This document shows, one piece after another, positions 3,149 to 25,702 of a DNA stretch of 64,000 nt (its first letter is position 1; the number at the start of each line of letters is the position of its first letter). The translations under genes and the position numbers were made by a program. The DNA lies in contig NZ_CP062163.1 in the NCBI RefSeq assembly GCF_014844095.1, positions 4,745,501 through 4,809,500 on the forward strand, in the 5' to 3' direction. Origin of the DNA: Brevibacillus sp. JNUCC-41 (GTDB taxonomy: Bacteria; Bacillota; Bacilli; Bacillales; DSM-1321). The notes under the pieces are model-generated. The model was not told the origin of the DNA, did no database searches, and was given only the letters and a program-made list of their open reading frames with translations.

Positions 3149-3787
3149 TCAATTAGCCCAGATTGCAAACAAGCCTTCTGTTACACCCAATTTGTATATA
3201 TAGTAAAGTCCGAATGCAAAACTTAAAGCTCCCGCCATTTTGATGAAGATTCGGTTTAAAACGATGTCCTTACCATTCAAAGCAAAAGGTATGCCTAGTA
3301 AAGTTGTAAAGCACAGCATGCCAATAATCGTCCCTGCGCCAAATATAATGATATAGATGGCTCCTTCACCTATTCCGCTTACGGTCGACATCGTTAGAAT
3401 GACCATTGCGGCACTGCCCGCGAGACCATGGACGAACCCAATCAAAGCAGACACCAAAAAAGGGCGAAATCTATCTTTGTCGTTCGTGATATTAGGGCAA
3501 GCTTTAAATAAACTTTTCGCCCCTAGCATAACAAGCATGATACCAACGCCGAATTCCAGCGTCATGCTTAACGACTCTGGAATTTCCCCTTTCATCCAAA
3601 TGAATAGCATACCTATAAAAAACAGCGTACATGTATGGCCTATTCCCCAATACACCCCCGTTAGAGTGGACCGCGATAATTTTTTCGTTTTTCCTGCAGT
3701 GGTTGCTACGGCAATAACATGATCCGGCTCTAACGAATGCTTTATTCCCAATAGGAACCCTAATGAAAGAATCGACACCAAGCTCAT
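3149..3787 (-). CDS. UreH/NiCoT-like nickel transporter, last gene of the lar operon
   Basis: 212-aa polytopic membrane protein. The first helix carries GIKHSLEPDHV, the His-x4-Asp-His signature that defines the nickel/cobalt transporter superfamily and its UreH/HupE relatives. Further helices follow (GIGHTCTLFFIG, GFVHGLAGSAAMVILTM), the second with another conserved His-Gly. The predicted role is nickel import across the plasma membrane. The start is ATG 3787, which overlaps the larC2 stop as ATGA; the longer ORF would begin inside larC2. Tight coupling to the NPN cofactor genes, whose end product carries nickel, argues strongly for nickel as substrate. The family is often labelled urease accessory protein, but no urease genes are here. 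Confidence 0.8.
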   Translation of the reverse strand: MSLVSILSLGFLLGIKHSLEPDHVIAVATTAGKTKKLSRSTLTGVYWGIGHTCTLFFIGMLFIWMKGEIPESLSMTLEFGVGIMLVMLGAKSLFKACPNITNDKDRFRPFLVSALIGFVHGLAGSAAMVILTMSTVSGIGEGAIYIIIFGAGTIIGMLCFTTLLGIPFALNGKDIVLNRIFIKMAGALSFAFGLYYIYKLGVTEGLFAIWAN

Positions 3788-4260
3788 TTCTCTATCACTT
3801 CCCCGAGACACTTCCATACTTCTTCATAAACCCTTTTAAGGGGTATATTGTACAGAACGGCAATTTTACGGCAATCTTCATATTCAGGTGCCTGCTGTAT
3901 GGGTTGGCCCTCATGGAAACCTCTCTTTATCGTCACTTGCCCCCATTGCGTGTCTACATATAATAATGATCGTTCGAGTCTGTGCACGGTAAGAGGATAG
4001 TAGCGTATACCGAGAGTCGTCGTTTCAGCAAATAATATCTTCTTGATTTTCGAAATCACCTGCTGTGAACAGAGAAGTTGCAATAACACCCCTGGTCGAT
4101 TTTTTTTCATGAAGATAGGCGTATAAAATACATCATTTGCTCCTGATTCAAACAACAAATCCATTACATGACCAAGCCATTCACCGGAAATATCATCTAG
4201 ATTCACTTCCATTTTTACCATTTGTCCATCAAGATGCTCATGATCAGGTGGGCGCTTCAT
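3784..4260 (-). CDS. larC: LarC2, C-terminal nickel-inserting domain of LarC
   Basis: 158-aa C-terminal half of the nickel-inserting cyclometallase LarC, which installs nickel into the P2TMN precursor in a CTP-dependent step to give NPN. Typical family segments are visible: MEVNLDDISGEWLGHVMDLL, FYTPIFMKKNRPGVLL and ETTTLGIRYYP. In many bacteria LarC is one chain. Here, as in Lactiplantibacillus plantarum, it is split in two reading frames. The start ATG overlaps the larC1 stop (CAATGA), and GGGGAG lies 7 nt upstream. That could be a ribosome-binding site for independent initiation, or a stimulator of -1 frameshifting that would make a fused protein; sequence alone does not decide. Confidence 0.9.
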   Translation of the reverse strand: MKRPPDHEHLDGQMVKMEVNLDDISGEWLGHVMDLLFESGANDVFYTPIFMKKNRPGVLLQLLCSQQVISKIKKILFAETTTLGIRYYPLTVHRLERSLLYVDTQWGQVTIKRGFHEGQPIQQAPEYEDCRKIAVLYNIPLKRVYEEVWKCLGEVIEK

Positions 4261-5096
4261 TGGATCTCCCCTATAATAATGCGAAGGACGTTCGGATGAT
4301 TTTCAAATGTTTTTGTCCCCGCACCATAGCCAATCGATTCGACAGTCATGGCTGGAAGCGAACCAAATTTTTCAGCTAAAACCGCAGCGATGGCAGCACC
4401 GGTTGGCGTTGCTAATTCAGAACGAATAGCGTTTGAGGCAATCGGTACCCCCTTTAATATTTCAAGTGTGGCAGGTGCAGGAACCGGGTATATGCCGTGA
4501 TCAATATGTATATGTCCAGATCCCGTTGGAATGGCTGATGACTGAACTGATTCAATACCTAGCTGTTCGATTAAAATTGCAGCCCCGATTATATCTATTA
4601 TCGAATCTACAGCTCCTACCTCATGAAAGTGAACTTTATCAAGCGGAAGCCCGTGTATGTGCCCTTCCGCTTCACCAATCTTCTTAAATATGGCGAGTGA
4701 CATGTTTGTTACCGATTCATTAAGGTTCGCCTCATTGATAGCTTCTACAATTTGTTTGTAGGTGCGGCTGCCATGATGATTGTGAAGTGCATGGCTATGG
4801 TTGTGTTCATGTTCATGACTGTGGCTGTGATCACCATTATGGCTGTGCTTATGTCCATGACTGTGGCTGTGTTCATGTGGTTGCTCTGATTTACTGGTAA
4901 GAATGACATCAAATTTAGTACTCGTAATGCCATTTTTGACGACTTTCCCCCATGACAGAGTATATTCTTCATCTATATTCAGCTTTTTTAACTCTTCTTC
5001 CATTTGTAAAGGGTCTGCACCCGCATCGATCAACGCACCAATAACCATATCTCCGCTTATGCCGGAAAAGCAGTCAAAATATAATGTCCTCATCAT
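4257..5096 (-). CDS. larC: LarC1, N-terminal domain of the nickel insertase LarC
   Basis: 279-aa N-terminal half of LarC. It begins with the family-typical RTLYFDCFSGISGDM. It then has an extreme His-rich stretch (17 His in residues 74-108, in HSHSHGHKHSH style), a common nickel-storage or delivery feature in LarC. Later segments HFHEVGAVDSIIDIIGAA and ATPTGAAIAAVL are conserved. GGAGG is followed by three consecutive ATG codons (5099, 5096, 5093); the middle one is chosen on spacing. The gene overlaps the end of larB by about 20 nt and ends in an ATGA overlap with larC2. Acts in the cytoplasm on the LarB/LarE product. Confidence 0.9.
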   Translation of the reverse strand: MMRTLYFDCFSGISGDMVIGALIDAGADPLQMEEELKKLNIDEEYTLSWGKVVKNGITSTKFDVILTSKSEQPHEHSHSHGHKHSHNGDHSHSHEHEHNHSHALHNHHGSRTYKQIVEAINEANLNESVTNMSLAIFKKIGEAEGHIHGLPLDKVHFHEVGAVDSIIDIIGAAILIEQLGIESVQSSAIPTGSGHIHIDHGIYPVPAPATLEILKGVPIASNAIRSELATPTGAAIAAVLAEKFGSLPAMTVESIGYGAGTKTFENHPNVLRIIIGEIQ

Positions 5097-5844
5097 CATT
5101 GGCCTCCTTTTTATGTACAAGTTTGTATATAATCGCTGCATTGTAGGCTGCACCAAATCCATTATCGATGTTCACCACACTTACACCCGATGCGCATGAA
5201 TTAAGCATGGATAAAAGGGCCGATAAACCGTTAAAATTGGCACCATAACCGATACTTGTCGGTACAGCAATAATTGGATTCGTGACAAGGCCTCCTAACA
5301 CACTTGGGAGAGCCCCTTCCATCCCCGCTACACAAACTGATACGGTGGCTCCTCGTATCTCATCTATATTATCAAGGAGGCGGTGCAGCCCAGCAACACC
5401 AACATCGTATATACGCCTGACTGGAATACCTAGTGTTTCGGCCGTCACGGCTGCTTCTTCAGCAACGGATAAATCTGATGTCCCGGCGCACACAATTGCA
5501 ATATATGAACCAACGGATTTGGGTTTTTCTTTAACCCAAGCAAGTGTCCGGGCCATATCGTTATACTCAAATTCACTACATTCTTTTTGTACAAAAACTG
5601 CTTTTTCCCGAGAAATTCGAGTCACAAGCACAGAATCATTCCTTGTCCGCAGGGATTGTACAATCGTTAAAATTTGCTCAGCCGTTTTCCCTTCTCCAAA
5701 TACAATTTCGGGAAAGCCTTGTCTCCTTTTTCGATGATGATCAATTTTTACAAACCCTAAATTCTCATATGATGCAAGTTTTTCCTTTGCTTCCGCTGCT
5801 GTCAATGAACCATTTTGAACCTGCTCTAAAATATTGTCGATCAT
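5074..5844 (-). CDS. larB: LarB, P2CMN synthase for nickel-pincer nucleotide
   Basis: 256-aa LarB. In the established pathway it carboxylates and hydrolyses nicotinic acid adenine dinucleotide to pyridinium-3,5-biscarboxylic acid mononucleotide, the first step to NPN. The N-terminal part (residues 1-110) is LarB-specific. The C-terminal part is a PurE-like domain with IVCAGTSDLSVAEEAAVTAE, YDVGVAGLHRLL, VAGMEGALPSVLGGL and VPTSIGYGA. Length is normal for the family. It overlaps larE by ATGA (5841-5844) and larC1 by about 20 nt, so translation of the set is coupled. Confidence 0.93.
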   Translation of the reverse strand: MIDNILEQVQNGSLTAAEAKEKLASYENLGFVKIDHHRKRRQGFPEIVFGEGKTAEQILTIVQSLRTRNDSVLVTRISREKAVFVQKECSEFEYNDMARTLAWVKEKPKSVGSYIAIVCAGTSDLSVAEEAAVTAETLGIPVRRIYDVGVAGLHRLLDNIDEIRGATVSVCVAGMEGALPSVLGGLVTNPIIAVPTSIGYGANFNGLSALLSMLNSCASGVSVVNIDNGFGAAYNAAIIYKLVHKKEANDDEDIIF

Positions 5845-6656
5845 AACATTTCTTCCTTTTTTAGCGCTATATTCATACTTCCGCTTGTATAGCCCGTTAG
5901 ATCCAATGATACATACTTATAACCAAATTGCTTCAGTCGTTTCGTGATCGCCACATGGTATTGGAGAACTCGCGGCATATCAACGGGTTCAACTTCAATT
6001 CGGGCAGTATCCTCATGCGTCCTGACTCTTACCTGATGAATATCCAATGATTTTAAGTAAGCTTCTGATTTATCCACTTTCGTCAACTTTTCCTTCGTAA
6101 TGATATCGCCATATGCTATGCGTGAAGATAGGCAGGCGAATGATGGTTTATCCCATGTTGGCAAACCGGCTTGCTTGGACAATTCTCTTATTTCTTCTTT
6201 GTATAAACCGGCTTCCAGAAGAGGTCCCCTGATTCCTTTTTCTTTAGCTGCTTTCATGCCTGGACGAAATTCGTTAGCATCATCAGCGATGACACCATAA
6301 ATTATATTTTTAAACTCATATTCTTCAAGAATAGGAAGCAGGTGATCAAATAAACTACTTTTACAAAAGTAACAGCGATTCTGATTATTTTCTGAATATC
6401 CAGGAATGGCCAACTCCGAAGTTTGAATGACTCGATGGTTGGCACCTATCCATTTTGATAGCATAATGGCTTCTTTCAACTCACTCGACGGATAGGTTTC
6501 CGAATCTGCTGTAATGGCTAACACATTATCATAACCCAAAGTCTCAATCGCAACATTTAGCAAAAAAGTGCTGTCCACCCCTCCTGAAAAAGCGACCACT
6601 ACCGACTCCATTTTTTGGAGAATCCCCTGCAGATTTCTATACTTTTCTAGTAACAT
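5841..6656 (-). CDS. larE: LarE, sulfur-inserting enzyme of NPN biosynthesis (three-Cys type)
   Basis: 271-aa PP-loop ATPase with SGGVDST at residues 24-30. LarE adenylates the LarB product and inserts sulfur to give the dithio-acid. In L. plantarum the sulfur comes from one sacrificial Cys. Here the equivalent Cys is C175 in FACLSSRI, and there is also a CxxC pair (C95, C98 in NRCYFCK). Those three Cys match the LarE class described as carrying a [4Fe-4S] cluster and acting without self-sacrifice. First gene of the tightly overlapping larE-B-C1-C2-transporter string; GGGG lies 9 nt before the ATG. A 178-nt gap separates it from the aldolase gene upstream, with no clear terminator between. 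Confidence 0.93.
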   Translation of the reverse strand: MLLEKYRNLQGILQKMESVVVAFSGGVDSTFLLNVAIETLGYDNVLAITADSETYPSSELKEAIMLSKWIGANHRVIQTSELAIPGYSENNQNRCYFCKSSLFDHLLPILEEYEFKNIIYGVIADDANEFRPGMKAAKEKGIRGPLLEAGLYKEEIRELSKQAGLPTWDKPSFACLSSRIAYGDIITKEKLTKVDKSEAYLKSLDIHQVRVRTHEDTARIEVEPVDMPRVLQYHVAITKRLKQFGYKYVSLDLTGYTSGSMNIALKKEEML

Positions 6657-6834
6657 AGCACTTTTCCCCTTTCTGGTTTGTCTAATTTATCCACTCTCCG
6701 CCATAATACTCTTGATGGACTACTATAAGATTAAACGAGATACATCAAATTGGCAGGAAAGGAGGAAATGAACACAGTCATACTATCATTACCAGTGCCT
6801 ATTGGACCAAAATTCATATAAGCTACGTATTGCT

Positions 6835-7467
6835 TTAGTTTTTTTGTACGATGGCTGCGAATTTTTTTGCCATTTCTGTCAACCTGGTATAATCCTCACC
6901 CGTAGTCAATTTCGCAGGAGTGATCAATGAACCACCAAGTCCTGCCGCGATGGCACCTGCCTTAAAAAAAGATGCAAGGTTGTCAAGGTTGACACCGCCA
7001 GTTGGCATAAGGGGAATGTGAGGAAACGGTCCTTTAAGATTTTTAAAGTAGCTAACACCCAGTGTATCTGCCGGAAAAACTTTGACAATGTCAGCTCCAT
7101 GCTCATAAGCAGTCAATATTTCGGTTGGTGTGAGCGCACCGGGGATACTAATAACGCCATAGCGCTTTGCCATTTTAATCGTTTTGACATTGACGATGGG
7201 AGAAAAGATAAATTCCGCCCCTGCCATGATGACCGCACGGGCCGTTTCAGGATCCAATACCGTGCCGGCACCCGCTATGATATCATCACCGAACTCCTCT
7301 TTCACTCTTTCAATTAAATGGCACACTTGGGGAGTTTCCACCGTTATTTCAAGTGTTCTGATGCCTCCCTCTTTCAGGGCCCGGGCGATTGGTATAATTT
7401 GGTCTGGGCGTGCACCCCGAATGACGGCGACCAGCTTCCCATGTTTAAGCTCTTCAAGTTTAGTCAT
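6835..7467 (-). CDS. kdgA: 2-keto-3-deoxy-6-phosphogluconate/galactonate aldolase (Eda family)
   Basis: 210-aa class I aldolase. It cleaves KDPG or KDPGal to pyruvate and glyceraldehyde-3-phosphate via a Schiff base. The catalytic Lys is in DIVKVFPAD and the general-base Glu in TLEITVETP; GAGTVLD, SPIVNV and MPTGGVNLDNL are further landmarks. ATG 7467 is chosen because AAAGGTGG precedes it; a GTG at 7476 is a possible alternative. It starts 13 nt after the kinase gene stop, so the two form the final phosphorylative steps for the product of DgoD or UxaA. Confidence 0.92.
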   Translation of the reverse strand: MTKLEELKHGKLVAVIRGARPDQIIPIARALKEGGIRTLEITVETPQVCHLIERVKEEFGDDIIAGAGTVLDPETARAVIMAGAEFIFSPIVNVKTIKMAKRYGVISIPGALTPTEILTAYEHGADIVKVFPADTLGVSYFKNLKGPFPHIPLMPTGGVNLDNLASFFKAGAIAAGLGGSLITPAKLTTGEDYTRLTEMAKKFAAIVQKN

Positions 7468-7480
7468 TTTTTCCACCTTT

Positions 7481-8437
7481 CTACCTCGTCACATCGTCAG
7501 TGCCGCCACTCATGAACAAAGCGAGGTCGGCACGGACCGGTAAACCCTCAACATCACCATTTACCATCGTTGCCATTGCCCCCATGGCATTTCCGCGCCT
7601 TGCAGCCTCATATAGAGGCAGTCCATCAAGTAGGCCGGAAAGTACACCAGATGCAAAAGCATCACCAGCACCGATGGGATCCACGACCCGTTCCACATGG
7701 AATCCAGGTACGTATGTTTTCGGTACAGACGGGGCTGAAATTAAAGAGCCCTCTTTGCCCAATTTAAGTAAAACTGTTTCAACACCGAGTTCATGAAAAT
7801 GATCGGCTAACATCTCCGGAGTATGGGAACCGAATAAAAATTCAGCTTCCGCCACCCCAGGCATGACGATATCACTTTTCGAGGCGTACTTTGTTATGAT
7901 GTGACGCGCTTCATTTTCATCCGACCATATTTTCAAGCGAATATTCGGATCGAAGACGATTTTTGTTCCGTTTTCTTTAGCAATGCGGATCGCTTTATCC
8001 AAGAGCGACTGACACGCATTCCCTAGTGCGGGGGTAATTCCGGTAATATGGAGATAAGCTGCGTCTTGGATGGCGAGATCAGTTAGTAATTCCGCCGTCA
8101 TTTTGCTAGCTGCCGAATCTTTCCGGTAATAATAAACTCTGGTATCATTCAGCCGTCTGTATTCTTTAAAAAAGACTCCGGTAGGCGCATCAGGATCTCT
8201 TGTTACATAAGAGATATCAACACCTTCTCCGCGAATGAACGATTGCATGGCATCGCCAAATTCATCCTCGCCGAGACGGCTTATCCAGCGTGTCCTATGA
8301 CCGAGTCGGCTTAGCCCGATCGCGACATTGGATTCCGCACCGCCGAACTTCATTGAAAAAGATCGGGCGTGGCGAAGTGGACCTTCTTCATTCGGGGTAA
8401 ACACTGTCATTGTTTCTCCGATGGTTACAACATCCAT
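7481..8437 (-). CDS. kdgK: PfkB-family 2-keto-3-deoxy-sugar-acid kinase
   Basis: 318-aa PfkB kinase, the same length as the kinase at 562-1518 and related to it throughout. It has GGAESNVAIGLSRLG, FDPNIRLKIWS and the C-terminal DPIGAGDAFASG motif with catalytic Asp. It should phosphorylate KDG or KDGal, feeding the aldolase gene that starts 13 nt downstream. ATG 8437 follows GAGGAAGAAGG. This copy is in the TRAP/DgoD string and the other in a separate operator-controlled operon, which suggests two related substrates or two regulatory inputs. Confidence 0.9.
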   Translation of the reverse strand: MDVVTIGETMTVFTPNEEGPLRHARSFSMKFGGAESNVAIGLSRLGHRTRWISRLGEDEFGDAMQSFIRGEGVDISYVTRDPDAPTGVFFKEYRRLNDTRVYYYRKDSAASKMTAELLTDLAIQDAAYLHITGITPALGNACQSLLDKAIRIAKENGTKIVFDPNIRLKIWSDENEARHIITKYASKSDIVMPGVAEAEFLFGSHTPEMLADHFHELGVETVLLKLGKEGSLISAPSVPKTYVPGFHVERVVDPIGAGDAFASGVLSGLLDGLPLYEAARRGNAMGAMATMVNGDVEGLPVRADLALFMSGGTDDVTR

Positions 8438-8458: not shown

Positions 8459-9322
8459 TCATGCTATTACGTGATTAGAAAGCGTGCCGATCTTCTCAAT
8501 GCTGACGTTCATCCGGTCACCGTTTTTCAACCAGATTTTCGGATTCCGCCCCATTCCAACGCCAGGTGGCGTACCAGTTGCAATCAAATCACCCGGCATC
8601 AGTGTCATGGACTGTGATAAAAATGATATGATTTTCGGAACCGTAAAAATTAGGTTGCTTGTATTTGAATCCTGCATAATTTCACCATTTAATTCAAGCG
8701 AAATCTCTAGATTGTGGGGGTCTCCCACTTCATCTTGCGTCACGATAAAAGGACCAAATGGCGCAAATGTGTCCGCCGTTTTGCCTCTCGACCACTGGCC
8801 ATCCTGAAATTGCAAGTCTCGGGCGCTAATATCATTCATAATTGTATAGCCAAAGATGTAATCATTCGCCTCTTCTTCAGATACATGTTTCGCTTCTCTC
8901 CCAATGACAAACGCAAGCTCTGCTTCAAAGTCGACCTCGGTTGAATTAATTGGAATTTCAATCGCATCATTATGGCCGGCAATGGCATTTGCATATTTGG
9001 TAAAAATGACCGGTGATTCAGGAGGCTCCATCCCCGTTTCCTTGCAATGATCAAAATAGTTAAGTCCTACGCAAATGATTTTATCCGGCTTTGCGATTGG
9101 CGGCAGGATCTTTACTTCTGACAGCTTGAATATTGCATCGTCATTAACTCGTTGCTCAATTAACTGTTCAGCACGTATTCTAAATTCTCTGCTGCGTTGT
9201 ATGAATTTTTTCATGCAAGTTGGAAATTCTTCTGGACCAAGAGCCGTTAAACTAATGATTTGATCATTTTTAACAAGACCGATGTGTTGTTCGGTTTGTA
9301 TGGAAAAAGTCGCTAATTTCAT
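8459..9322 (-). CDS. Fumarylacetoacetate hydrolase (FAH) family protein
   Basis: 287-aa FAH-domain enzyme; these metal-dependent proteins act on 2-oxo-acids as hydrolases, decarboxylases or dehydratases. Family segments: ICVGLNYFDHCKETG, PPESPVIFTKYA, VDFEAELAFVIGREAKHV (acidic metal ligands), MNDISARDLQ, QWSRGKTADTFAPFGPF, and TGTPPGVG near the C-terminus. ATG 9322 follows AAAGGGG. It sits between the 2-hydroxyacid dehydrogenase and kinase genes of the sugar-acid string. The reaction is not defined; a 2-keto-3-deoxy acid or its derivative is the likely substrate. Confidence 0.88.
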   Translation of the reverse strand: MKLATFSIQTEQHIGLVKNDQIISLTALGPEEFPTCMKKFIQRSREFRIRAEQLIEQRVNDDAIFKLSEVKILPPIAKPDKIICVGLNYFDHCKETGMEPPESPVIFTKYANAIAGHNDAIEIPINSTEVDFEAELAFVIGREAKHVSEEEANDYIFGYTIMNDISARDLQFQDGQWSRGKTADTFAPFGPFIVTQDEVGDPHNLEISLELNGEIMQDSNTSNLIFTVPKIISFLSQSMTLMPGDLIATGTPPGVGMGRNPKIWLKNGDRMNVSIEKIGTLSNHVIA

Positions 9323-9337: not shown

Positions 9338-10297
9338 CTAAGTCAAAGCGTATGGTGTTATTTCTCCGTTTAAGACCTGAACGATATTTCTCGCTGCCTT
9401 TTGACGAAGTTCAACCATTGCTTCCTCTGAATACCAGGCACTGTGCGGCGTAATGATGACATTGTCCATTGTGAGTAGCGGGCTATCGGTGCTGACCGGC
9501 TCTTTCTCTGTCACATCAAGTGCTGCACCTGCAATTACCCCTTTTTCAAGTGCATCAGAAAGTGCTTTTTCATCGATTATCGGTCCCCGTGCCGTGTTAA
9601 TGATAACCGCATTTCTCTTCATTTGTTTAAGGCGCTCCTCATTGATCAGATGGTATGTATCATCAATTAAGGGCACATGGATCGACAAATAATCAGCTTC
9701 TGCCATAATTTCGTCGAGCTCCATTTTTTGAACCCCAATCGCAGCCATGTCTGCCGCCGATACGAAAGGATCGTATGCAGCAGTTTTAAAGCCGAGCGGT
9801 TTCACCTTTTCAATGAAACGGCGCGGAATCCGACCAAAGCCTAGAACCCCAACAGTTTGCTCGTTAAATCGATGAATCGGGACACACACCTTAAAATCCC
9901 AGTTACCTTTTTTCACTTCATTGTTTAACAGTGTCACTTTCCGCGCGGAAGAAAGTAAAAGTGCCAATGCATGATTCGATACTTCTTCCATGCCATAATC
10001 CGGTACATTGGCGACAGTGATCCCCTTTTCCTTAGCCGCATTGAGATCAATTGTATTGACGCCAACACCGTAGCGGGAAATGATTTTGGTGTTTTCAAGC
10101 GAATCAATAACTCGGCGTGAGATAGGAGCATATTGATTCAAAATTGCATCCACTTCTTTTGCCTGCCCCATTACTTCTTCTTCAGTTTTGCATTGCGCTT
10201 TGATGAATTCGATTTCCAGACCGCTTTCTTGAAAAATCTCTTCTTCATATTTCAAATGTTCAAATTCGTAATCCGTTATTAATATTTTAAATGACAT
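9338..10297 (-). CDS. D-isomer-specific 2-hydroxyacid dehydrogenase (CtBP/SerA-like)
   Basis: 319-aa NAD-dependent dehydrogenase of the D-2-hydroxyacid family. The N-terminal substrate domain is followed by a Rossmann core and the catalytic set Arg in NTARGPIID, Glu in DVTEKEPV and His in PHSAWYS. One oddity: the dinucleotide loop reads G-F-G-R-I-P (residues 153-158), so the third Gly of the usual GxGxxG is Pro. The rest of the active site is intact, so it is probably functional, reducing a 2-oxo-acid or oxidising a 2-hydroxyacid in the sugar-acid pathway. ATG 10297 follows AAAGGGAG. Confidence 0.87.
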   Translation of the reverse strand: MSFKILITDYEFEHLKYEEEIFQESGLEIEFIKAQCKTEEEVMGQAKEVDAILNQYAPISRRVIDSLENTKIISRYGVGVNTIDLNAAKEKGITVANVPDYGMEEVSNHALALLLSSARKVTLLNNEVKKGNWDFKVCVPIHRFNEQTVGVLGFGRIPRRFIEKVKPLGFKTAAYDPFVSAADMAAIGVQKMELDEIMAEADYLSIHVPLIDDTYHLINEERLKQMKRNAVIINTARGPIIDEKALSDALEKGVIAGAALDVTEKEPVSTDSPLLTMDNVIITPHSAWYSEEAMVELRQKAARNIVQVLNGEITPYALT

Positions 10298-12219: not shown

Positions 12220-12236
12220 TGTTTTTCCTCCTTTTA

Positions 12237-13385: not shown

Positions 13386-13412
13386 CAAGCACCTCGCATT
13401 GTTTTTTTGGAG

Positions 13413-13448
13413 GAAAGAGAGGTTTTCAAACATGGAAACCTCTCTTTC
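13413..13448. other. Intercistronic stem-loop between the aldehyde dehydrogenase and dgoD genes
   Basis: A 13-bp perfect inverted repeat (13413-13425 with 13436-13448) and a 10-nt loop. On the minus strand it is followed by CTCCAAAAAAAC, with no T-run, so it is unlikely to be a strong terminator for the operon. It may stabilise or mark a processing point in the long transcript. Confidence 0.5.
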
Positions 13449-14923: not shown

Positions 14924-14945
14924 AATCTTCAGCTCCTTTTTCGTT

Positions 14946-16127: not shown

Positions 16128-16407
16128 CCCTTCCTCTTTTACCTTCCAAATTGTGTACATGAACATGTGCACCAGCTGGAATAAAAGTTGAGGCTGCCCC
16201 TATGACTTCCCCATATTTAATTATGTCTGCTCCTTGTTCGATGGCTTTGACTGCGAACTTATGTCCAAAACGAATCGGTTCAAGAATGGGTACGACAAGT
16301 TCTTCAAGGTCTGCCTTCACAATGACTGATGTGTTTGCAGGGATTTCGGATAAAGCGACAGCTACACTATCTTTCGTACTTAAGTAAAGTGTTTTATACT
16401 CACCCAT
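16108..16407 (-). CDS. UxaA-family dehydratase, small SAF-domain subunit
   Basis: 99-aa protein with the SAF domain found at the N-terminus of altronate dehydratase and as the SuyA-type small subunit. It shows ALSEIPANTSVIV, EPIRFGHKFAVKAIEQGADIIKYGEVIG and AGAHVHVHN, whose His-x-His and upstream His are typical. ATG 16407 follows AGGGGGGAC. Its end overlaps the large-subunit start by about 20 nt, so the two subunits should be made together. It should form a two-chain dehydratase with the downstream protein. Confidence 0.88.
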   Translation of the reverse strand: MGEYKTLYLSTKDSVAVALSEIPANTSVIVKADLEELVVPILEPIRFGHKFAVKAIEQGADIIKYGEVIGAASTFIPAGAHVHVHNLEGKRGRGDKIAE

Positions 16408-18166: not shown

Positions 18167-20371
18167 TCACTTTATTTCAACTTTTTTTCCTTGGAGTAAG
18201 ACATCCTGTTCATAATCAAGGACCGCATCCTCAATGACAGCGATTGGAACAACACCATTTGCAGCATCTGTATGTCCAAACATCCTGTTGCTGGCCGCAA
18301 CCATTTTTTGTCTAACTTTCATCCGCTGCTTGCGTTCAGTTGCCAATGATTGTCTTTCTTCTATAAAATGATCCGCAAAATCATGAACAACCTTTCCTGA
18401 ATGAAGTTGAGTAGCATCTACAAAATCAATCCGTCGATCACGAAGCTGAAGGTGGATTACATCCCCTGAATTTAGTAAACCAATGCCTCCGCCTTCATAT
18501 GATTCCGGTGTCATATGTCCTATAGCAGCACCATATGTGACTCCTGAATAGCGGCCGTCGCTAATGATTGTAGCGATCTTTTTCATAACGCGATTAGCAT
18601 TGATGTGTTGCATTGGTGTAAACATTTCCGGCATTCCGAATGCTACTGGCCCCTGCCCTGAGATAATGACCGCAATTTTCAATGTGCCTTCTTCAACCAT
18701 CCTGTCAAATAACTCCCCATAGGAAGCATTTTTTAGAAGAGACCATTCCGCCTCATTGTTGTATTTAAGAGACTCGAGCAATAGATTATGTCCGAAAAGC
18801 TTTTGCTCTTTTATTTTTGAAAGCAGATTTGAATCAAGCAGGCTTTTATTTGCATCATCCTCGTTTTCGTAATAAAGGACAAATGCCAGCTTATCATCGA
18901 ATTGGTCAAGCTGTGGTGTCGGCATTCCGCTGATTTTTACAACGGCGCTTTCAAAGAAGTTTCCTTTTAATACATCAACACCGCTGAATCCACGGCGTGG
19001 ATTGGATAAAATGACCTGATTTTGCTTTACATTAACCGCTTTTAGGCTACTTGTAATCGCAAGACGTTCTTTCCAGGTTTTTGCTGCAACAGTCGGCGCA
19101 TCCTGATCCATTGGTACACCATTCTCGATAAGTTCATAAAAAAGTGTTTCCATCCCCCTGCTTGTCCCACTGCAACATTGCATCGCAAGTGAATAAATGT
19201 CCCTTCCCTCTGTCAAACTGTAATCAAATAAGTCAGGAATTGGATGGGAATGATGAATGCGGTCAAGGTCCCATAAGCTGAATTTGAATCCTGCATAAAG
19301 CATGCCGGCGACAATATGCATCATTAAGTTAGTAGAACCACCCGAAGCGCTGTGAATACGGATTGCATTTTTTATGTTCGCAGCGACAATGTTGGCCACG
19401 CCGTAACGCTCTTCGTTTATCATGCCTGCAAAGCTATCAAGCACCGAGTTAATCTGGCGTTGTGTTGGTGGATCGGTTAACAGCTCCACGGCTGGATGAA
19501 CAAGACCCATGCCTGCCACTAAATGACGTGAACTATTCCCCGTTCCATTGAAGGCACATACACCTCCCTGCCCGTCGCATGTTGCGACAGCAAGTCTCAT
19601 TTCAAAATATTTATGCTGTTCCTTCGTCAATATTCCTCGTTCATACGCCCGTTCAAACACACCCTGGAATGCAGTATTCGATGAACATTGCAATATATAT
19701 GCCATCGTATCTCGTAAATCAACCGCTACATCAGTAGCTCCTTTACTTTCCGCTTTTTTCGCAAGAGTTTCCAATTCCTCAATCACGTCAGCTGGAATCG
19801 AACCGCCTTCTAATACGTGAGCAGGTGCGAATGTTGCGAAAAAGGGAGCTTCACCACGGTTTCGGCGAACACGATCAACATGTGCGAGTGCACTTACAAC
19901 ACCAAGAGGCTGCTTATCACACCCTTGAATGACGAATGCACCATGATAACTGTGAGCTTCTAGCTGGTTGACAACCATTTGTGCAACCGCGTTTCGGCTC
20001 TGGAGAGAGTAACTCATTCCTTGATTGTTTTGCGCAGTTCCATCACACATTACCGGAGTCGAGAAATGAAACGGCACGCCGCCGTTTTGCCAGATGCGGA
20101 TTGCTGCCCGTGCCGACGTTTGGTAATCCATTATATGGGCCGGATGATCGGACGAACCACCGATAATTGCGATACGCGGGGCATTCCTCTCTAGCCGCAT
20201 ATAAATTTCCTCAAGCGTCCAATCAGGCTTCCCCCCTTCATATGTGGAGCCAAGCGTCAACTTCGAACGGTCCAACAGACCCGCAACCGTAATGGGTTCA
20301 TTTGCTTTTCCCTGTACATTATCGCGGTAAGGGTTAATTTCGTTATCGATTAGTGGATATAGGTGTGTCAT
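18167..20371 (-). CDS. IlvD/Edd-family sugar-acid dehydratase (pentonate/xylonate type)
   Basis: 734-aa Fe-S dehydratase, longer than IlvD (about 560-620 aa) and nearer the YjhG/YagF xylonate-dehydratase branch. Cluster-ligand segments are VMCDGTAQNNQG, QGCDKQPLGV and CDGQGGVCAFNGTGNSS. SASGGSTNLMMH and SDGRYSGVTYGAAIGHMTPES are the substrate/Mg regions. It should dehydrate an aldonate, probably a pentonate, to the 2-keto-3-deoxy acid taken on by the KdaD-like protein. ATG 20371 follows AAAGGAG, 21 nt after the LarA-like gene. Substrate preference cannot be read from sequence. Confidence 0.9.
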   Translation of the reverse strand: MTHLYPLIDNEINPYRDNVQGKANEPITVAGLLDRSKLTLGSTYEGGKPDWTLEEIYMRLERNAPRIAIIGGSSDHPAHIMDYQTSARAAIRIWQNGGVPFHFSTPVMCDGTAQNNQGMSYSLQSRNAVAQMVVNQLEAHSYHGAFVIQGCDKQPLGVVSALAHVDRVRRNRGEAPFFATFAPAHVLEGGSIPADVIEELETLAKKAESKGATDVAVDLRDTMAYILQCSSNTAFQGVFERAYERGILTKEQHKYFEMRLAVATCDGQGGVCAFNGTGNSSRHLVAGMGLVHPAVELLTDPPTQRQINSVLDSFAGMINEERYGVANIVAANIKNAIRIHSASGGSTNLMMHIVAGMLYAGFKFSLWDLDRIHHSHPIPDLFDYSLTEGRDIYSLAMQCCSGTSRGMETLFYELIENGVPMDQDAPTVAAKTWKERLAITSSLKAVNVKQNQVILSNPRRGFSGVDVLKGNFFESAVVKISGMPTPQLDQFDDKLAFVLYYENEDDANKSLLDSNLLSKIKEQKLFGHNLLLESLKYNNEAEWSLLKNASYGELFDRMVEEGTLKIAVIISGQGPVAFGMPEMFTPMQHINANRVMKKIATIISDGRYSGVTYGAAIGHMTPESYEGGGIGLLNSGDVIHLQLRDRRIDFVDATQLHSGKVVHDFADHFIEERQSLATERKQRMKVRQKMVAASNRMFGHTDAANGVVPIAVIEDAVLDYEQDVLLQGKKVEIK

Positions 20372-20392: not shown

Positions 20393-21661
20393 TCAAATGA
20401 ATTCTTCCAATCTGTCTAGTGCCAATTCCTCTGGTTCTGAAAGAATCTCTATATTTTTGTTTTTTAAAGCTTCTTCCATCATGCTTTCAGAAATCCAAAT
20501 TTCACCGATTTCAAGCGTGTTTTGTATTCTTACTACTCTCACTTTATTCAGATCGAAGGCATTGCACGTTTTGATAGCGGCTTTAACAGCCAATTCCTGC
20601 GTATCTAAAAACATCGGGAGCTTTACTACATCTGTCACTGTGCTTGTGAGTGCATTGGCGTAGCCTTTTTCCCACTCAATTTCATTCATGACGGCCTTCG
20701 TCGTCATATCAGCCATGCCGATGCCGTTTGCATTACCGTGAGTTTTTTCAGTAAGTCCAAGTACAACGGTCCGTTTAACGTCTGGCCCCCCGGTAGCATA
20801 TGGAGTGGCGAAGTTACCCGTAATATTCGGATCCATTCCATCCCCCGAAATGTCCTTTCCGAGTTCATTTACAATAAGTACGTCGATCGAATCGAAATGT
20901 AATTTTGGCATCAATGATTTTGCTTCAAGCAATAGTCCGGGTTCCACTTCCTCCAGTTCCTCTGCAGGGACTGCGACGATTTTCGCTGGTTTATCATAGG
21001 CATTTTCAATTGTCGCAAGACCAAATATGATAGGAGCTTTTGTTAAGGAAATCTTCGCCATCTCAGGGACATGTTCCGCCATATACTTAAAGCTATATGC
21101 ATGTGCAGCTTCGGCTCCCTTTTGCTTGCCTAAACCGATTGTAATCATTTTCATTAGTCCGCTTTCAACCGGCCCACGAAATGCCGTATGTGGTTTTATC
21201 CGATTAATGACTATGATTTTATCCGATTCATATGCAAGCTTATCAATATAGACAGGGAGCCCATTTGGCAATTCATCCAGTTGAATAACTTCCATCGATG
21301 AAAGTATTGGCGCTCCAACCGATTCCTCTGAAATACCCAGCTGAAGCAACACATCGATTTGCCCTTCCGCTGTAGCACCCCCATGGCTTCCCATTGCAGG
21401 GACGATAAAAGGATTGCCGCCAGCCCCTTTGACGGCCGCTACCGTTTCTCTTACTAATATAGGAAGGTCCGCTACCCCTCTGCTTCCTACTGCAATTGCC
21501 ACCCTGTCATCTTCATTTATTCTTGATAAGACACCTGCTTCTTTTATCGACTTCTTCACCTCACCGGCTACATCAGTGATTTGAGGTGTATTAAATTTCT
21601 GCCTCACTTTGACCATTTTCGGTAATTGGATTTCACGTAATAGTTCAGAGATAATATCCAT
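20393..21661 (-). CDS. LarA-superfamily protein, candidate nickel-pincer-dependent sugar-acid epimerase
   Basis: 422-aa protein of the lactate racemase (LarA/DUF2088) superfamily. LarA uses a nickel-pincer nucleotide bound covalently to Lys184, nickel-ligated by His200, with His108 and His174 as acid/base residues. Equivalents are visible: H93 in GSHGGATAEG, H158 in KPHTAF, K171 in SGLMKM and H187 in AEAAHAYS. The Lys-to-His spacing is 16, as in LarA; the His-to-Lys spacing is 13 instead of 10. It is therefore likely NPN-dependent but a divergent subgroup. Its place among sugar-acid dehydratase and TRAP genes suggests C2 epimerisation of an aldonate, not lactate racemisation. ATG 21661 follows GGAGG. 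Confidence 0.85.
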   Translation of the reverse strand: MDIISELLREIQLPKMVKVRQKFNTPQITDVAGEVKKSIKEAGVLSRINEDDRVAIAVGSRGVADLPILVRETVAAVKGAGGNPFIVPAMGSHGGATAEGQIDVLLQLGISEESVGAPILSSMEVIQLDELPNGLPVYIDKLAYESDKIIVINRIKPHTAFRGPVESGLMKMITIGLGKQKGAEAAHAYSFKYMAEHVPEMAKISLTKAPIIFGLATIENAYDKPAKIVAVPAEELEEVEPGLLLEAKSLMPKLHFDSIDVLIVNELGKDISGDGMDPNITGNFATPYATGGPDVKRTVVLGLTEKTHGNANGIGMADMTTKAVMNEIEWEKGYANALTSTVTDVVKLPMFLDTQELAVKAAIKTCNAFDLNKVRVVRIQNTLEIGEIWISESMMEEALKNKNIEILSEPEELALDRLEEFI

Positions 21662-21685: not shown

Positions 21686-22726
21686 TTATTTACCGCGTAC
21701 TTTTTCAACTTCGCTCATCATTTCCTCTACAAGATCCGGCCCGAATTTTTGGGCATATTCGTCCGTCACTGGCTGGATGGCTTTCTTCATTTTTTCCACT
21801 TCTTCCGGCTCTACTTCATTGATTTTCATTCCTTCATCTTTTAGATACTTAAGTGCTTTTTCATTTTCTTTTTGGTTAACTTCCCGTTGATACTTTCCAG
21901 CCTCTTGTGCGGCCTCACTCATGATTTCTTGCTCTTGTTCTGATAAATCATCCCAGAACTTTTTACTTACCAGGAATACAAATGGAGTATAAACATGATT
22001 CGTAAGACTTAAGTATTCTTGCACTTCATTATATTTTTGCGTTTGAATTGTTGCGAGTGGGTTCTCTTGCCCATCAACAGTACCAGTTTCCAACGCAGTA
22101 AATACTTCAGAGAAGGCCATCGGCGATGGGTTCGCCCCTAACTTTGAAAATGCATCTAAATGCACTTCATTTTGCATGGTACGGAGTTTCAGACCTTTGA
22201 AATCATCAGCCGTTTTAATCGGATGTTTACTATTGGTTAAGTTTCGGAAGCCGTTTTCCCAGTATCCCAAACCAACTAAATCATGTTCCGGCAATTTATC
22301 CAAAAGTTTTTTGCCTACTGCACCATCAAGTACTGTATAAGCTTCCTCTTCATTATTAAAAACAAATGGGAAGTCATAAATTCCAAATTCCTTAATCATC
22401 CCCACAAGTGGTGAGGTTGAAGGTACAGTTACTTCCTGTAAACCGCCTTGAAGTGCTTCTGTCATTTTCTGATCATCTCCGAGGGTGGCATCAAAAAAGT
22501 TTTGGACTTTCATTTTCCCCCCGCTTTTTTCTTCAACCAGTTCTTTAAATTTCTCCATTCCTTTTCCTTGTGGATGCATTTTACTATTTCCGATTCCTGC
22601 TTTGATTGTTCTTTTCTGAATACCGTCGGCTGAAGCGCTTTCATTTTGTCCGCTTCCGCAAGCACTTAATAGTAGTAATGAAGGCAGTAAAACTCCAACC
22701 GCCAAACGTTTGAACAAATTATTCAT
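21686..22726 (-). CDS. dctP: TRAP transporter substrate-binding lipoprotein (DctP family), second copy
   Basis: 346-aa extracytoplasmic binding protein. A lipoprotein signal ends in LLLLSAC with the lipidated Cys near residue 20. The DctP fold shows the carboxylate-binding Arg in GLKLRTMQN and the conserved QENPLATIQTQKYNEVQ segment. It should capture a sugar acid and pass it to the DctQM membrane pair. ATG 22726 is used because GGAGG lies 9 nt upstream. It follows DctM by about 60 nt and is quite different from the first DctP at 24674-25702, so one transporter may use two binding proteins. Confidence 0.9.
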   Translation of the reverse strand: MNNLFKRLAVGVLLPSLLLLSACGSGQNESASADGIQKRTIKAGIGNSKMHPQGKGMEKFKELVEEKSGGKMKVQNFFDATLGDDQKMTEALQGGLQEVTVPSTSPLVGMIKEFGIYDFPFVFNNEEEAYTVLDGAVGKKLLDKLPEHDLVGLGYWENGFRNLTNSKHPIKTADDFKGLKLRTMQNEVHLDAFSKLGANPSPMAFSEVFTALETGTVDGQENPLATIQTQKYNEVQEYLSLTNHVYTPFVFLVSKKFWDDLSEQEQEIMSEAAQEAGKYQREVNQKENEKALKYLKDEGMKINEVEPEEVEKMKKAIQPVTDEYAQKFGPDLVEEMMSEVEKVRGK

Positions 22727-22790
22727 TTTCATTTTCCTCCTAATAAATAAGATGAATATCAGCATACAGACCAATTACTTGATAAATCCC

Positions 22791-24068
22791 TTAGGAAGTA
22801 AACCATTCTAGAGGAACCAGCACTAAGGAAGGAAACAAAATCAATAAGATCAATACAATCACTTCAACGAGCAAGAAAGGCCAAATCCCCTTCATGATAT
22901 CTTCCATACTGATCTTACTTATGCCGCACATGACATTTAAAACGGTTCCGACAGGTGGTGTAAGTAAACCGATGGCGTTATTCAGGATAAACAGGACACC
23001 AAAGTAAACTGGATCAATACCTGCAGCGACCACCAATGGCATCAAGACAGGTGTTAGAATAAGGATTGTCGGAGTCATATCCATAGCAGTTCCAACTACG
23101 ATAACCAATAGGTTTATCATGATTAATAGAAGGAATGGATGATCCATAAATGGCTCCAGCAATCCAATTACCTGACCAGGTAAATCGGCTACAGTTATCA
23201 GCCAGGATGACACGAGTGCAGCAGCGACCAGAAACATGACAACACTCGTCATTTTTCCTGCATGGACAAAGACATCATACAAATCTTTCACTTTCATTTC
23301 GCGATAGATTACTAGACCGACAAATATTGCATAGACTGCAGCCACCACTGCCGCTTCAGTCGGTGTAAATAAACCGAATTTCAATCCACCAATGATTATG
23401 ACGGGCAGGAATAGAGCCCAAATGCCTTGACGAAGAGATGTAAGTATTTCTTTTGCTGAAGCTCGGGGGTTAACGGCGACTTTATCTTTTCGTGCAACAA
23501 TGGCCCAGGTAACCGTAAGTCCAACGGCTAGTAAAATACCTGGAACGATTCCTGCCATGAACAACTTTGTAATGGACACACCACTCGCGACACCGAAAAT
23601 GATAAAGCCAATACTTGGCGGAATGATCGGGGCAATGATGCCACCTGATGCAATCAACCCACTTGACCGGTTCACATCATAACCGGACTTCACCATCATT
23701 GGAATTAATATAGCCCCAAGCGCTGCCGTATCGGCAACAGCAGATCCCGATAAACTCGCAAACAACACACTCGCAATGATCGCAACATAGCCAAGGCCTC
23801 CCTTGATATGGCCAACCAATTTCATTGCCATCTCAACGATACGCCGAGATAAACCGCCCCGATTCATCGCCTCTCCTGCCAGCATAAAGAACGGTATGGC
23901 CATTAGAGGAAAGTTATCCGCGCCACTGATTAGGTTTTGTGCGATAATTTGACTATCAAAAATACCAAGAAAGTACATAAGCACTACGCTACTAACAAGT
24001 AAGGCAAATGCAATAGGAATTCCAAGTCCCATGGCTCCCAGTAAAGATCCGACAAATACACCTATCAT
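22791..24068 (-). CDS. dctM: TRAP transporter large permease (DctM)
   Basis: 425-aa polytopic protein with about 12 hydrophobic helices, the sodium-driven translocating subunit of a TRAP transporter. Family segments include GIPIAFALLVSSVV, NFPLMAIPFFMLAGEAMNRGG, SGSAVADTAALGAILIPMM, SGGIIAPIIPPSIGFIIFGV and GLLTPPVGTVLNV. Its start overlaps the dctQ stop by 4 nt (ATGA). GGAGGAG precedes the ATG. With DctQ and the two DctP proteins it forms the uptake system that opens the sugar-acid operon. Confidence 0.94.
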   Translation of the reverse strand: MIGVFVGSLLGAMGLGIPIAFALLVSSVVLMYFLGIFDSQIIAQNLISGADNFPLMAIPFFMLAGEAMNRGGLSRRIVEMAMKLVGHIKGGLGYVAIIASVLFASLSGSAVADTAALGAILIPMMVKSGYDVNRSSGLIASGGIIAPIIPPSIGFIIFGVASGVSITKLFMAGIVPGILLAVGLTVTWAIVARKDKVAVNPRASAKEILTSLRQGIWALFLPVIIIGGLKFGLFTPTEAAVVAAVYAIFVGLVIYREMKVKDLYDVFVHAGKMTSVVMFLVAAALVSSWLITVADLPGQVIGLLEPFMDHPFLLLIMINLLVIVVGTAMDMTPTILILTPVLMPLVVAAGIDPVYFGVLFILNNAIGLLTPPVGTVLNVMCGISKISMEDIMKGIWPFLLVEVIVLILLILFPSLVLVPLEWFTS

Positions 24069-24637
24069 CCCTGCTTCTCCTCCTTAATTATCCTAATATC
24101 TGATTCAAATTCATCAGCATGGAGGGAAATTAGCTCTTCTGACTCACTTATCATAACTAATTCTTTGTCTTTAATTTTATTGAAGAAAATCCGATACAAG
24201 TTGAATATGATCATGCTGCCCATTGAAACACTTACAAGAATACCTGTCCCATATACAAATGCCAGTGGCATTCCAGTGGCCGGTGCAGCACTATCAATGT
24301 TTATCATGGTCATTTTCCAGCTTCCATCCAAGATTAAGAGAAGAACGAATAACATCATCAAATCACTAATAACCAGTACCACTTTTTTCATCTTATTCGG
24401 GAGCCGTTTAATGACCATGTCGACACCTAAGTGTTCTTTGTTTTTGAAAGCTCCGATGGCGCCGAGGAACGTCAACCAAATAAAGAGATACCTTGACATT
24501 TCTTCTGACCAAGTAATCCCTGAATTAAAGAAATAACGAAGAACTACATTACCAAACACGAGTACGACCATTATTGCTAAAGCAGCTGCCATAATAATGT
24601 TTAACGAATTTTCCAAGATTCTGGATATTTTATTCAC
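24065..24637 (-). CDS. dctQ: TRAP transporter small permease (DctQ)
   Basis: 190-aa four-helix membrane protein of the DctQ type: FGNVVLRYFFNSGITWSEEM is the family signature, followed by LFIWLTFLGA and GVDMVIKRLP. It forms the membrane scaffold with DctM. The start is GTG 24637 with GGGGGAG eight nt upstream. The C-terminus carries a charged cytoplasmic tail of about 45 residues. Translationally coupled to dctM. Confidence 0.92.
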   Translation of the reverse strand: MNKISRILENSLNIIMAAALAIMVVLVFGNVVLRYFFNSGITWSEEMSRYLFIWLTFLGAIGAFKNKEHLGVDMVIKRLPNKMKKVVLVISDLMMLFVLLLILDGSWKMTMINIDSAAPATGMPLAFVYGTGILVSVSMGSMIIFNLYRIFFNKIKDKELVMISESEELISLHADEFESDIRIIKEEKQG

Positions 24638-24673
24638 CTATACATCTCCCCCTTCCTATCTGGAGCGCCTGCT

Positions 24674-25702
24674 TCATTCTGCTTTTATTTTTCCAATGAG
24701 CTCCTCCGCCCAGTCATTTTTCTCAAAGACTTCATCATAAACAGGTTGAGATGCTTTTAACATTTTTTCTGAAAAGTCTTCGTCAGGCGTAGTGAATTTG
24801 ATTCCATTATCTTCAAGATATGCTTTGTCATCTTCATAACTTTTTTCCATCAATTCAAACTCATATGCTGCCGACTCTTTTGCGGCTTTTAGAATGATTT
24901 TTTGTTGCTCCTTTGTTAGCCCTTTATAGAATTTGCTATTGATAATGTAAATATTGGGGCTGAACATATGCTTGGATTCCAGTACATCACTTTGAACTTC
25001 ATTCCACCCCGAGGATCTCAGCGTGGCAATAGGATTATCTTGTGCATCAACTACCTTTTGTTCAAGTGCGGTGAAAACTTCTGAAATAGGTAATGGGCTA
25101 ACGTTCGCCCCCAATGATTCACCTAGTTTTATGTAATTCGGGATGTTCGGCATTCTGAGTCGAAGTCCATCAAAGTCTTTCATACTCTTAATTGGACGAT
25201 TACTCGAAAACATCCTAAATCCGTTTGCACTCCATGCAAGTGGTGTCACGCCATGTTTTGGATCAAGCTCTTTTGTCAATTCCTCTCCTATAGGTCCATT
25301 CAATACCTTCTTTACATGACCGTAATCCCTAAATAGGAAGGGCCATTCAGGAACACCCATTTTAGGAATGTCCGACTGCATAATTAGTCCTGGAACACCC
25401 ATTTCGATCGTTCCATTTCTGACTCCGTCGTAAAATTCTTTTTCTGCACCTAATGTACTGTTCGCATAAATCCGCACCTCTAGTTCACCATTACTCTCCT
25501 TTTCAACGATTTTTTTGAATTTTTCTTTCAGGGCAATGTTTTGAGGATGATTTTCAGCAAAATAATGCGCCACTTTAATCGTTTTCTTTTCAACTCCAGA
25601 TCCACTGGTTTTTTCTCCCTCTCCTCCGCCACATCCTGATAAAAGGAATGCCATTGCTAGAGTTAAGCTTGTGGAAAATACAAAAAGCTTTCTTTTTTTC
25701 AA
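24674..25702 (-). CDS. dctP: TRAP transporter substrate-binding lipoprotein (DctP family), first copy
   Basis: 342-aa binding protein, first gene of the long catabolic string. The lipoprotein signal ends in AFLLSGC; the mature part shows the DctP Arg in GLRLRMPNIP and the QDNPIATLRSSGWNEVQ segment. TTG 25702 is the start: GGGGAGGG lies 6 nt upstream, while the ATG 45 nt further upstream would read through that site and add a non-signal extension. A perfect cre box lies 24 nt upstream and the promoter about 260 nt upstream, so the gene has a long regulated leader. Confidence 0.92.
   Translation of the reverse strand: MKKRKLFVFSTSLTLAMAFLLSGCGGGEGEKTSGSGVEKKTIKVAHYFAENHPQNIALKEKFKKIVEKESNGELEVRIYANSTLGAEKEFYDGVRNGTIEMGVPGLIMQSDIPKMGVPEWPFLFRDYGHVKKVLNGPIGEELTKELDPKHGVTPLAWSANGFRMFSSNRPIKSMKDFDGLRLRMPNIPNYIKLGESLGANVSPLPISEVFTALEQKVVDAQDNPIATLRSSGWNEVQSDVLESKHMFSPNIYIINSKFYKGLTKEQQKIILKAAKESAAYEFELMEKSYEDDKAYLEDNGIKFTTPDEDFSEKMLKASQPVYDEVFEKNDWAEELIGKIKAE

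Follow-up and report, generated by a model that had tools for sequence, protein, structure and literature searches.

A group 22 nickel-pincer LarA homologue in a sugar-acid island of Brevibacillus sp. JNUCC-41, a candidate aldonate 2-epimerase

Which reaction can be expected from a nickel-pincer nucleotide (NPN) enzyme whose gene lies among those of sugar-acid catabolism? The question is raised by a stretch of 64,000 nucleotides of Brevibacillus sp. JNUCC-41 (contig NZ_CP062163.1; bases 4745501-4809500 of a 5.49 Mb genome in a single contig), here called the window. We assigned 23 genes in it, all on the minus strand and running from 25747 down to 3149 (coordinates of the open reading frames, ORFs, in the window), in the order TRAP transporter, LarA homologue, IlvD/EDD-type dehydratase (IlvDx), IclR-family regulator, sugar-acid catabolic enzymes, larE, larB, larC1, larC2 and a NicO-like gene. 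They overlap or are at most 66 bp apart, with the sole exception of a 178-bp gap (6656 to 6835) before larE, and the arrangement is not due to chance, since much of it recurs in other genera. An earlier note on this DNA had named the four lar genes, the LarA homologue and a TRAP/DgoD/UxaA/IlvD-type string, and all were found on that strand; beyond these, and bearing on the pathway, are an alpha-ketoglutarate semialdehyde dehydrogenase (KGSADH), two FAH-family proteins, the IclR-family regulator, a YagE-like DHDPS-family protein, a 2-hydroxyacid dehydrogenase, a PfkB kinase and a KDPG aldolase. The LarA homologue is quite probably an aldonate 2-epimerase of some kind, and we see about an even chance that the island serves aldonate catabolism with this enzyme acting first on D-pentonates.

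The LarA fold is present in the protein, which scores above the cut-offs of NF052515 (nickel pincer cofactor-dependent isomerase, group 22; 557 vs 400 bits) and PF09861 (33.6 vs 23.3); the number 22 we take to be the LarA homologue (LarAH) group number of Desguin et al. 2020. Two catalytic His, the NPN-binding Lys, the Ni-binding His and Arg75 were mapped by hhalign, and all of them are kept in 121/121 rows of group 22. Against PDB sequences, a profile search with the group-22 alignment gave nothing at E 0.01 and phmmer matched 2yjg only at E 0.51, so kinship with LarA rests on Pfam, NCBIfam, hhalign and the fold. Alignment A1 comprises 18 sequences (the window protein and 17 from loci L002-L042), and clade lists were taken from a quick tree of 121 rows without bootstrap, which omits L001 and L008 (the gene of the window itself) and served no other purpose. 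Two other assignments were rejected: malate racemase, as the protein reaches no more than 27 and 21 bits on the two malate LarA models, and the single-His type of group 17, where Asn replaces the second catalytic His (PMC12611868), as His158 is found in 121/121 rows.

The genes for the cofactor are unambiguous by their scores, LarE, LarB, LarC1 and LarC2 each exceeding a curated cut-off (Table 1). LarE contains the SGGXDS motif and a CXXC...C pattern (Cys95, Cys98, Cys175), resembling the [4Fe-4S] type of T. maritima and not the single-Cys sacrificial type, as these are described in passages of PMC9283937. In the window LarC1 and LarC2 are encoded by two ORFs that overlap by ATGA; the two are parted by intervening genes in L093, L098, L108 and L111, and lie on opposite strands in L137; two separate LarC proteins therefore seem to suffice, unlike the LarC of L. 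plantarum, which is a frameshift fusion. The NiCoT/UreH-like transporter of the earlier note is its weakest item: the gene is present and its product carries H-S-L-E-P-D-H, that is HX4DH, which we take to be the NiCoT signature, but it scores under the cut-offs of PF03824 (Table 1) and TIGR00802 (23.6 vs 333 bits). Homologues of it are found near lar genes in L051, L054, L091 and L094. Since the only Lar_N protein of the genome adjoins its only LarB above cut-off, both within the window, the NPN epimerase module with its own cofactor genes looks self-supplied, as had been proposed; lar genes linked to another LarA elsewhere in this genome were looked for, and none were found.

Group 22 is above cut-off in 85/398 sampled genomes of the phylum and in 16/41 genomes of a set that includes the source genome. 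LarB is above cut-off in 17 of these 41, namely all 16 group-22 carriers and G038. The context of larA was tabulated for 80 named loci (L043-L122) out of 122 loci in total, within the limits set by contig ends and 10-kb flanks; they are the best 80 of 589 matches, so their counts favour close relatives. Among them, the nearest to the window protein are from Bacillaceae (Bacillus sp. SA1-12, 85%; Domibacillus, 83-84%). Within 9 kb of larA, the 17 named close relatives (L043-L059) have DctP in 15 cases, IlvDx and IclR in 14 each, FAH1 in 13, KGSADH in 11, the UxaA/GarD-type dehydratase in 10, any lar gene in 7 and DgoD in 6. In L044, L045, L058 and L133 the lar genes come before the TRAP genes, whereas L050-L052, L054 and L055 have them behind the catabolic genes; where both are seen, their order relative to the island changes and the linkage stays.

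Two records stand apart in this survey. L046, titled Pseudomonas sp. ISL-84, has a Bacillus-type island (LarA 79%, DgoD 90%), and is perhaps a mislabelled or contaminated assembly or the result of a recent transfer. Haloferax volcanii is alone among 14 control genomes in having a match to the group-22 model above cut-off; larB/C/E candidates are listed for it in PMC8305020, the relevant passages of which name no client enzyme.

IlvDx (734 aa) remains under the cut-off of all 8 IlvD/EDD models listed, so that its substrate is not given by family. It is the next gene to larA in 12/17 close relatives and is 1-2 genes off in two more (L053, L048). The named loci were retrieved via LarA and are blind to IlvDx without LarA, the fair linkage test being a search for IlvDx in the 41 genomes: it occurs in 12, always near larA (within 0.15 kb in 10, and 1.3-1.4 kb away in G005 and G032). 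In the phylum sample it is found in 1/398, the window itself. Identification as YjhG was rejected, since identity is 25-32% in two patches. Outside the window's clade, ordinary-sized IlvD/EDD dehydratases adjoin group-22 genes in L069, L072, L102, L104 and L112, scoring on the L-arabinonate dehydratase model (cut-off 882) 772 bits in L104 and 344 to 423 in the other four; the dehydratase two ORFs from larA in L060 is an L-arabinonate dehydratase (1011 bits).

The steps after the dehydratase can be predicted from the remaining enzymes. The best solved relative of FAH1 is a 2-keto-3-deoxy-D-arabinonate dehydratase (2q18, E 1e-68), which suggests the FAH/DHDPS-type 2-keto-3-deoxy-pentonate (KDP) dehydratase of a Weimberg-type route (Route II), and the KGSADH of such a route is above its cut-off (Table 1). 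Together with the YagE-like DHDPS and the UxaA/GarD-type dehydratase, whose large subunit we call GDAH, they would fit a Weimberg-type pentonate route. A D-arabinonate dehydratase of the UxaA/GarD family clustered with FAH-family KDP dehydratases is already described in PMC6336799, although the FAH enzymes there are said to bear little relationship to their archaeal counterpart. No match to a sugar dehydrogenase or lactonase was found by family scans among the 23 island genes, so the pathway seems to start from the acid.

The predicted regulation points in the same direction. Upstream of the island there are two copies of a 36-nt repeat containing the palindrome GTTTTATAWTATAAAAC, which is matched at 15 or more of 16 positions in 17/18 upstream regions (14 perfect; the 18 are those of the window, 14 named loci and 3 further loci) vs 4/18000 first-order random regions. 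Perfect copies occur at three places in the source genome, one at the island and two at a divergent xylonate locus. One arm of that locus encodes a YjhG/YagF D-xylonate dehydratase (1215 vs 808 bits) together with a GntP symporter, and the opposite arm carries IclR, FAH and KGSADH genes. Between island and xylonate locus, identity is 63% for FAH1, 66% for KGSADH and 51% for IclR. A copy with one mismatch lies ahead of an MFS gene, which reaches 303 vs 395 bits on a D-galactonate-type model, and of a GhrB-like gene. Among the 41 genomes we found 29 perfect sites in 12 genomes, and none for the reversed pattern. By position, 9 belong to LarA islands, 12 to YjhG (a pair for every one of the 6 genomes where this enzyme exceeds its cut-off), 3 to the MFS locus and 2 to IclR-FAH operons without larA (G026, G031). 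Of the 9 island sites, one was read directly in the window and two more, from G005 and G032, in the sequences of L132 and L133, the other 6 being placed by distance alone. A perfect island operator is present in 9/12 IlvDx genomes, and G016 has 15/16 (L134). The IclR-family regulator probably pairs with this operator. Since G020, G026 and G031 have operator-type pentonate loci but lack a group-22 match, the core pentonate route seems to be broadened by the epimerase as an optional addition.

DgoD (above cut-off), the KDG-kinase-like PfkB and the KDPG aldolase would add a hexonate branch, and they argue for hexonates too. The LarA homologue might then be a hexonate 2-epimerase, for example converting D-talonate to D-galactonate to feed DgoD, the kinase and the aldolase (De Ley-Doudoroff). 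Although we consider it rather unlikely, D-galactonate/D-talonate stays a real rival because dgoD is also present. The gene adjoins larA in L053, L072 and L133, which speaks against pentonates, and there is a precedent for hexonates in the GntE enzymes of PMC7583248. On the other hand, DgoD lies within 9 kb in only 6/17 close relatives vs 14 for IlvDx and 13 for FAH1, and the operator ties the island to the D-xylonate locus. The frequent partners (FAH1, KGSADH) and the shared operator thus shift the substrate from hexonates, which headed the earlier note's list and are kept as one possibility owing to dgoD, toward pentonates, which it had listed last.

A further reading takes an aldarate, for example an epimer of a pentarate or hexarate, as the substrate; the product would pass to the UxaA/GarD-type dehydratase and then through a keto-deoxyglucarate-type step and KGSADH. 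The sole PDB match of GDAH is a galactarate dehydratase (6u7l, E 5e-72), and the KGSADH model is named gudD/GucD, presumably a glucarate-operon enzyme. In addition, C2 epimerisation of D-arabinarate epimers by LarA homologues is reported in PMC11770544. However, on the equivalog for galactarate dehydratase GDAH scores only 244 vs 731 bits, YagE and not KdgD (93 vs 374 bits) is the nearest relative of the DHDPS, and GDAH was not seen in L052, L054 and L055, which retain larA, IlvDx, FAH1 and KGSADH. We hold an aldarate substrate to be improbable.

From the gene content, family membership, residues, conservation, co-occurrence and shared operator sequence, we infer the following scheme of NPN loading, reaction, substrate and regulator-operator pairing, with D-pentonates as the preferred substrates. 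The TRAP transporter would import sugar acids, and the group-22 LarA homologue would be loaded with NPN from the island's LarB, LarE and LarC1/C2, nickel entering perhaps via the NicO-like protein. With Lys171 carrying the cofactor and His187 binding Ni, His93 and His158 would invert C2 of the aldonate through a proton-coupled hydride transfer, and the resulting epimer would fit a stereospecific dehydratase. This would above all be IlvDx, with the UxaA/GarD-type enzyme as a second one in many islands. The FAH-family dehydratase would turn the 2-keto-3-deoxy acid into alpha-ketoglutarate semialdehyde, which the dehydrogenase would oxidise to alpha-ketoglutarate; alternatively, the acid would be cleaved by the YagE-like aldolase into pyruvate and an aldehyde. 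In this way D-lyxonate/D-xylonate or D-ribonate/D-arabinonate would converge on one 2-keto-3-deoxy-D-pentonate. The IclR-family regulator, acting on the palindrome, would switch on the island together with the D-xylonate locus.

Several observations weigh against this scheme. It is drawn from gene context, and in PMC7583248 Mar2 and GntE2 were the only enzymes whose reaction agreed with their gene context. IlvDx is missing from the stretch around larA in 3/17 close relatives (L043, L056, L059), KGSADH was not seen in the 20 kb read of the G003 island (L135), and in L060 the aldehyde dehydrogenase falls short of the KGSADH cut-off (324 vs 770). As for the operator, the upstream region of L046 is without it, and the remaining 3/29 perfect sites (one in G001 and two in G032; L149 ~4114, L150 ~4069 and ~4142) are at genes matching no reference protein. 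With up to 2 mismatches the genome has 16 sites vs 8 for the reversed control; weaker sites thus mean little, and only the 5 sites with 0-1 mismatch were used. In the enzyme, the equivalent of Asp72, an NPN ribose contact, is absent, hhalign placing a 2-residue gap in group 22, where the column before the invariant GSRG is V/A/C/I/G in 121 rows; five other compared LarA homologues retain Asp. Furthermore, hhalign ends at residue 266 and the C-terminal half does not align to other LarAs, so the LarA substrate residues Tyr294, Lys298, Trp358 and Thr359 have no mapped equivalents in group 22. The missing Asp72 and the unalignable half could also mean that the protein binds NPN without epimerising and performs another hydride-type reaction on a sugar acid; chemistry outside the classical type is suspected for relatives of this fold that have a single catalytic His (PMC12611868). 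We hold this to be very improbable, both catalytic His, the Lys and the Ni ligand being invariant.

A sister clade of group 22 also bears on the substrate class. In one branch, 11/11 named Paenibacillus loci have larA with an SDR and an FGGY kinase, 10/11 have 6-phosphogluconate dehydrogenase (6PGDH), and 0/11 have lar genes within 9 kb. Of 28 loci in the other branch, which come from Bacillaceae and some Paenibacillus, 25 have SDR, 25 lar genes, 22 the kinase, 10 glucuronate isomerase and 10 6PGDH, while the 7 remaining named rows on this side of the tree have SDR in 4 and kinase in 2. Full-length representatives of the SDRs score 271, 279 and 287 bits on 'D-mannonate oxidoreductase' (cut-off 281), and other representatives score 637 and 491 on gluconokinase (649), 773 and 768 on 6PGDH (427) and 632 on glucuronate isomerase (387). 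Neighbours resembling D-mannonate oxidoreductase and gluconokinase, with 6PGDH and sometimes UxaC, suggest D-mannonate/D-gluconate epimerisation, which would also suit a hexonate substrate in the window. The simplest reading would be a route from glucuronate via fructuronate to mannonate, NPN epimerisation to gluconate, and phosphorylation. This route is credited to Rodionova et al. for Thermotoga in a passage of PMC6978723; in the Lactobacillus treated there phosphorylation comes first, so 6-phosphomannonate remains a candidate substrate. With two of its clades placed in sugar-acid pathways, group 22 as a whole becomes more likely to act on aldonates.

Epimerisation of sugar acids by LarA homologues, which the earlier note contrasted with the lactate racemase setting of lar genes, is not new in kind: GntE enzymes (LarAH groups 19/20; GntE1/2) are D-gluconate 2-epimerases according to PMC7583248. 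Like them, the window protein would be an NPN enzyme for sugar-acid C2 within a sugar-acid gene cluster, but it belongs to another group and has other pathway partners. Moreover, GntE has Glu-Val (or Glu-Ser) after the second catalytic His (passages of PMC11770544 and PMC7583248), whereas the window protein has Thr159-Ala160 (Thr in 118/121 rows, Ala in 98/121). With lactate racemase LarA and its larBCE genes it shares the fold, the His pair, the NPN Lys, the Ni His and the cofactor genes, and it differs in its sugar-acid neighbours, the missing Asp72 equivalent and an identity of 15-20% to lactate racemase entries. Within NF052515 it shares the mapped catalytic and cofactor residues, being in a pentonate-type island while the other clade is found with mannonate/gluconate genes. 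The sugar-acid dehydratase, FAH-family KDP dehydratase and KGSADH are those of Route II, to which the island adds the NPN epimerase and the 734-aa IlvD/EDD subfamily.

In open-licence PMC text without supplements, no activity of a group-22 member, no pentonate 2-epimerase (at the level of listings and abstract openings) and no paper with both 'nickel-pincer' and 'xylonate' was found. Table 1 of PMC7583248 has no group-22 member among its 13 homologues, and its Table S1 may list group-22 context; 'group 22' is absent from the main text of PMC11770544. NPN sugar-acid epimerases and group 22 as a catalogued HMM family are known, and the predicted reaction and regulon would be new. The NPN enzymes are a young superfamily with many groups lacking an assigned substrate, and this locus narrows the large group 22 to a short list of reactions, supplying a matching dehydratase, transporter and regulator. 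If true, it would account for the retention, in a relative of Bacillus, of a complete pathway to the nickel cofactor that serves a single enzyme; one pathway could consume several C2-epimeric five-carbon (perhaps six-carbon) sugar acids, and an enzyme for making rare aldonates would be at hand. More tentatively, and with somewhat less than even confidence, we suggest that group 22 consists of widespread NPN aldonate 2-epimerases, comprising here the first NPN-dependent pentonate epimerase, an adaptor before IlvDx under one IclR operator and leading into one alpha-ketoglutarate route, and in the sister clade a mannonate-to-gluconate glucuronate bypass in Bacilli.

Table 1. Island genes and operator copies, with window coordinates and family evidence (score vs cut-off where given).
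Feature	Position	Strand	Evidence
TRAP solute-binding protein DctP (1)	24674..25747	-	PF03480
TRAP small permease DctQ	24065..24637	-	PF04290
TRAP large permease DctM, YiaN-like	22791..24068	-	below equivalog cut-off
TRAP solute-binding protein DctP (2), second copy	21686..22774	-	PF03480
LarA homologue, group 22 NPN-dependent isomerase; proposed aldonate (pentonate) 2-epimerase	20393..21661	-	
IlvDx, 734-aa divergent IlvD/EDD-superfamily dehydratase	18167..20371	-	PF00920/PF24877
IclR-family regulator, KdgR-like	17337..18104	-	below cut-off
FAH1, FAH family, probable 2-keto-3-deoxy-pentonate dehydratase	16418..17305	-	best PDB 2q18
SAF small subunit, UxaA/GarD-type dehydratase	16108..16407	-	PF08666
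UxaA/GarD-type dehydratase large subunit (GDAH); true start probably inside	14946..16172	-	PF20629, PF04295; 6u7l
KGSADH	13454..14983	-	NF042993 851 vs 770 bits
D-galactonate dehydratase DgoD	12237..13433	-	NF010624 673 vs 311 bits
DHDPS-family aldolase, YagE-like	11308..12243	-	2v8z YagE E 3.8e-68
Conserved protein, weak U32 match, perhaps TIM barrel	10364..11311	-	
D-2-hydroxyacid dehydrogenase family	9338..10297	-	
FAH-family hydrolase, diketo-deoxy-rhamnonate hydrolase-like	8459..9322	-	below cut-off
PfkB sugar kinase, KDG-kinase-like	7481..8437	-	below cut-off
KDPG/KHG aldolase	6835..7476	-	TIGR01182 193 vs 156 bits
LarE, ATP-dependent sulphur insertase, CXXC...C motif	5841..6656	-	TIGR00268 354 vs 150 bits
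LarB	5074..5844	-	NF033503 306 vs 175 bits
LarC1, true start probably inside	4257..5162	-	TIGR00299 220 vs 90 bits
LarC2, ATGA overlap with LarC1 at 4257-4260	3784..4260	-	NF052512 143 vs 50 bits
NicO/UreH-like probable nickel transporter	3149..3817	-	PF03824 23.6 vs 27.7 bits
Operator copy 1, GTTTTATATTATAAAAC (perfect palindrome), probably of IclR-family type, ahead of the TRAP genes	25794..25810		
Operator copy 2, one mismatch to GTTTTATAWTATAAAAC	25920..25936		

Among the minor genes, the U32-like protein is strongly conserved (58-88% in six relatives) and possibly accounts for a missing step of the pathway. Its model has a pLDDT of 62.5, and the best Foldseek rows are mostly TIM-barrel enzymes (query TM 0.26-0.45). 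In G026, a genome with no group-22 match, a homologue (L151, 5192-6133) stands in a row with 2-hydroxyacid dehydrogenase, IclR and FAH genes under the same operator. Elsewhere in the window, a lysine riboswitch is followed by a DHDPS-family gene (32885-34094), an ordinary arrangement.

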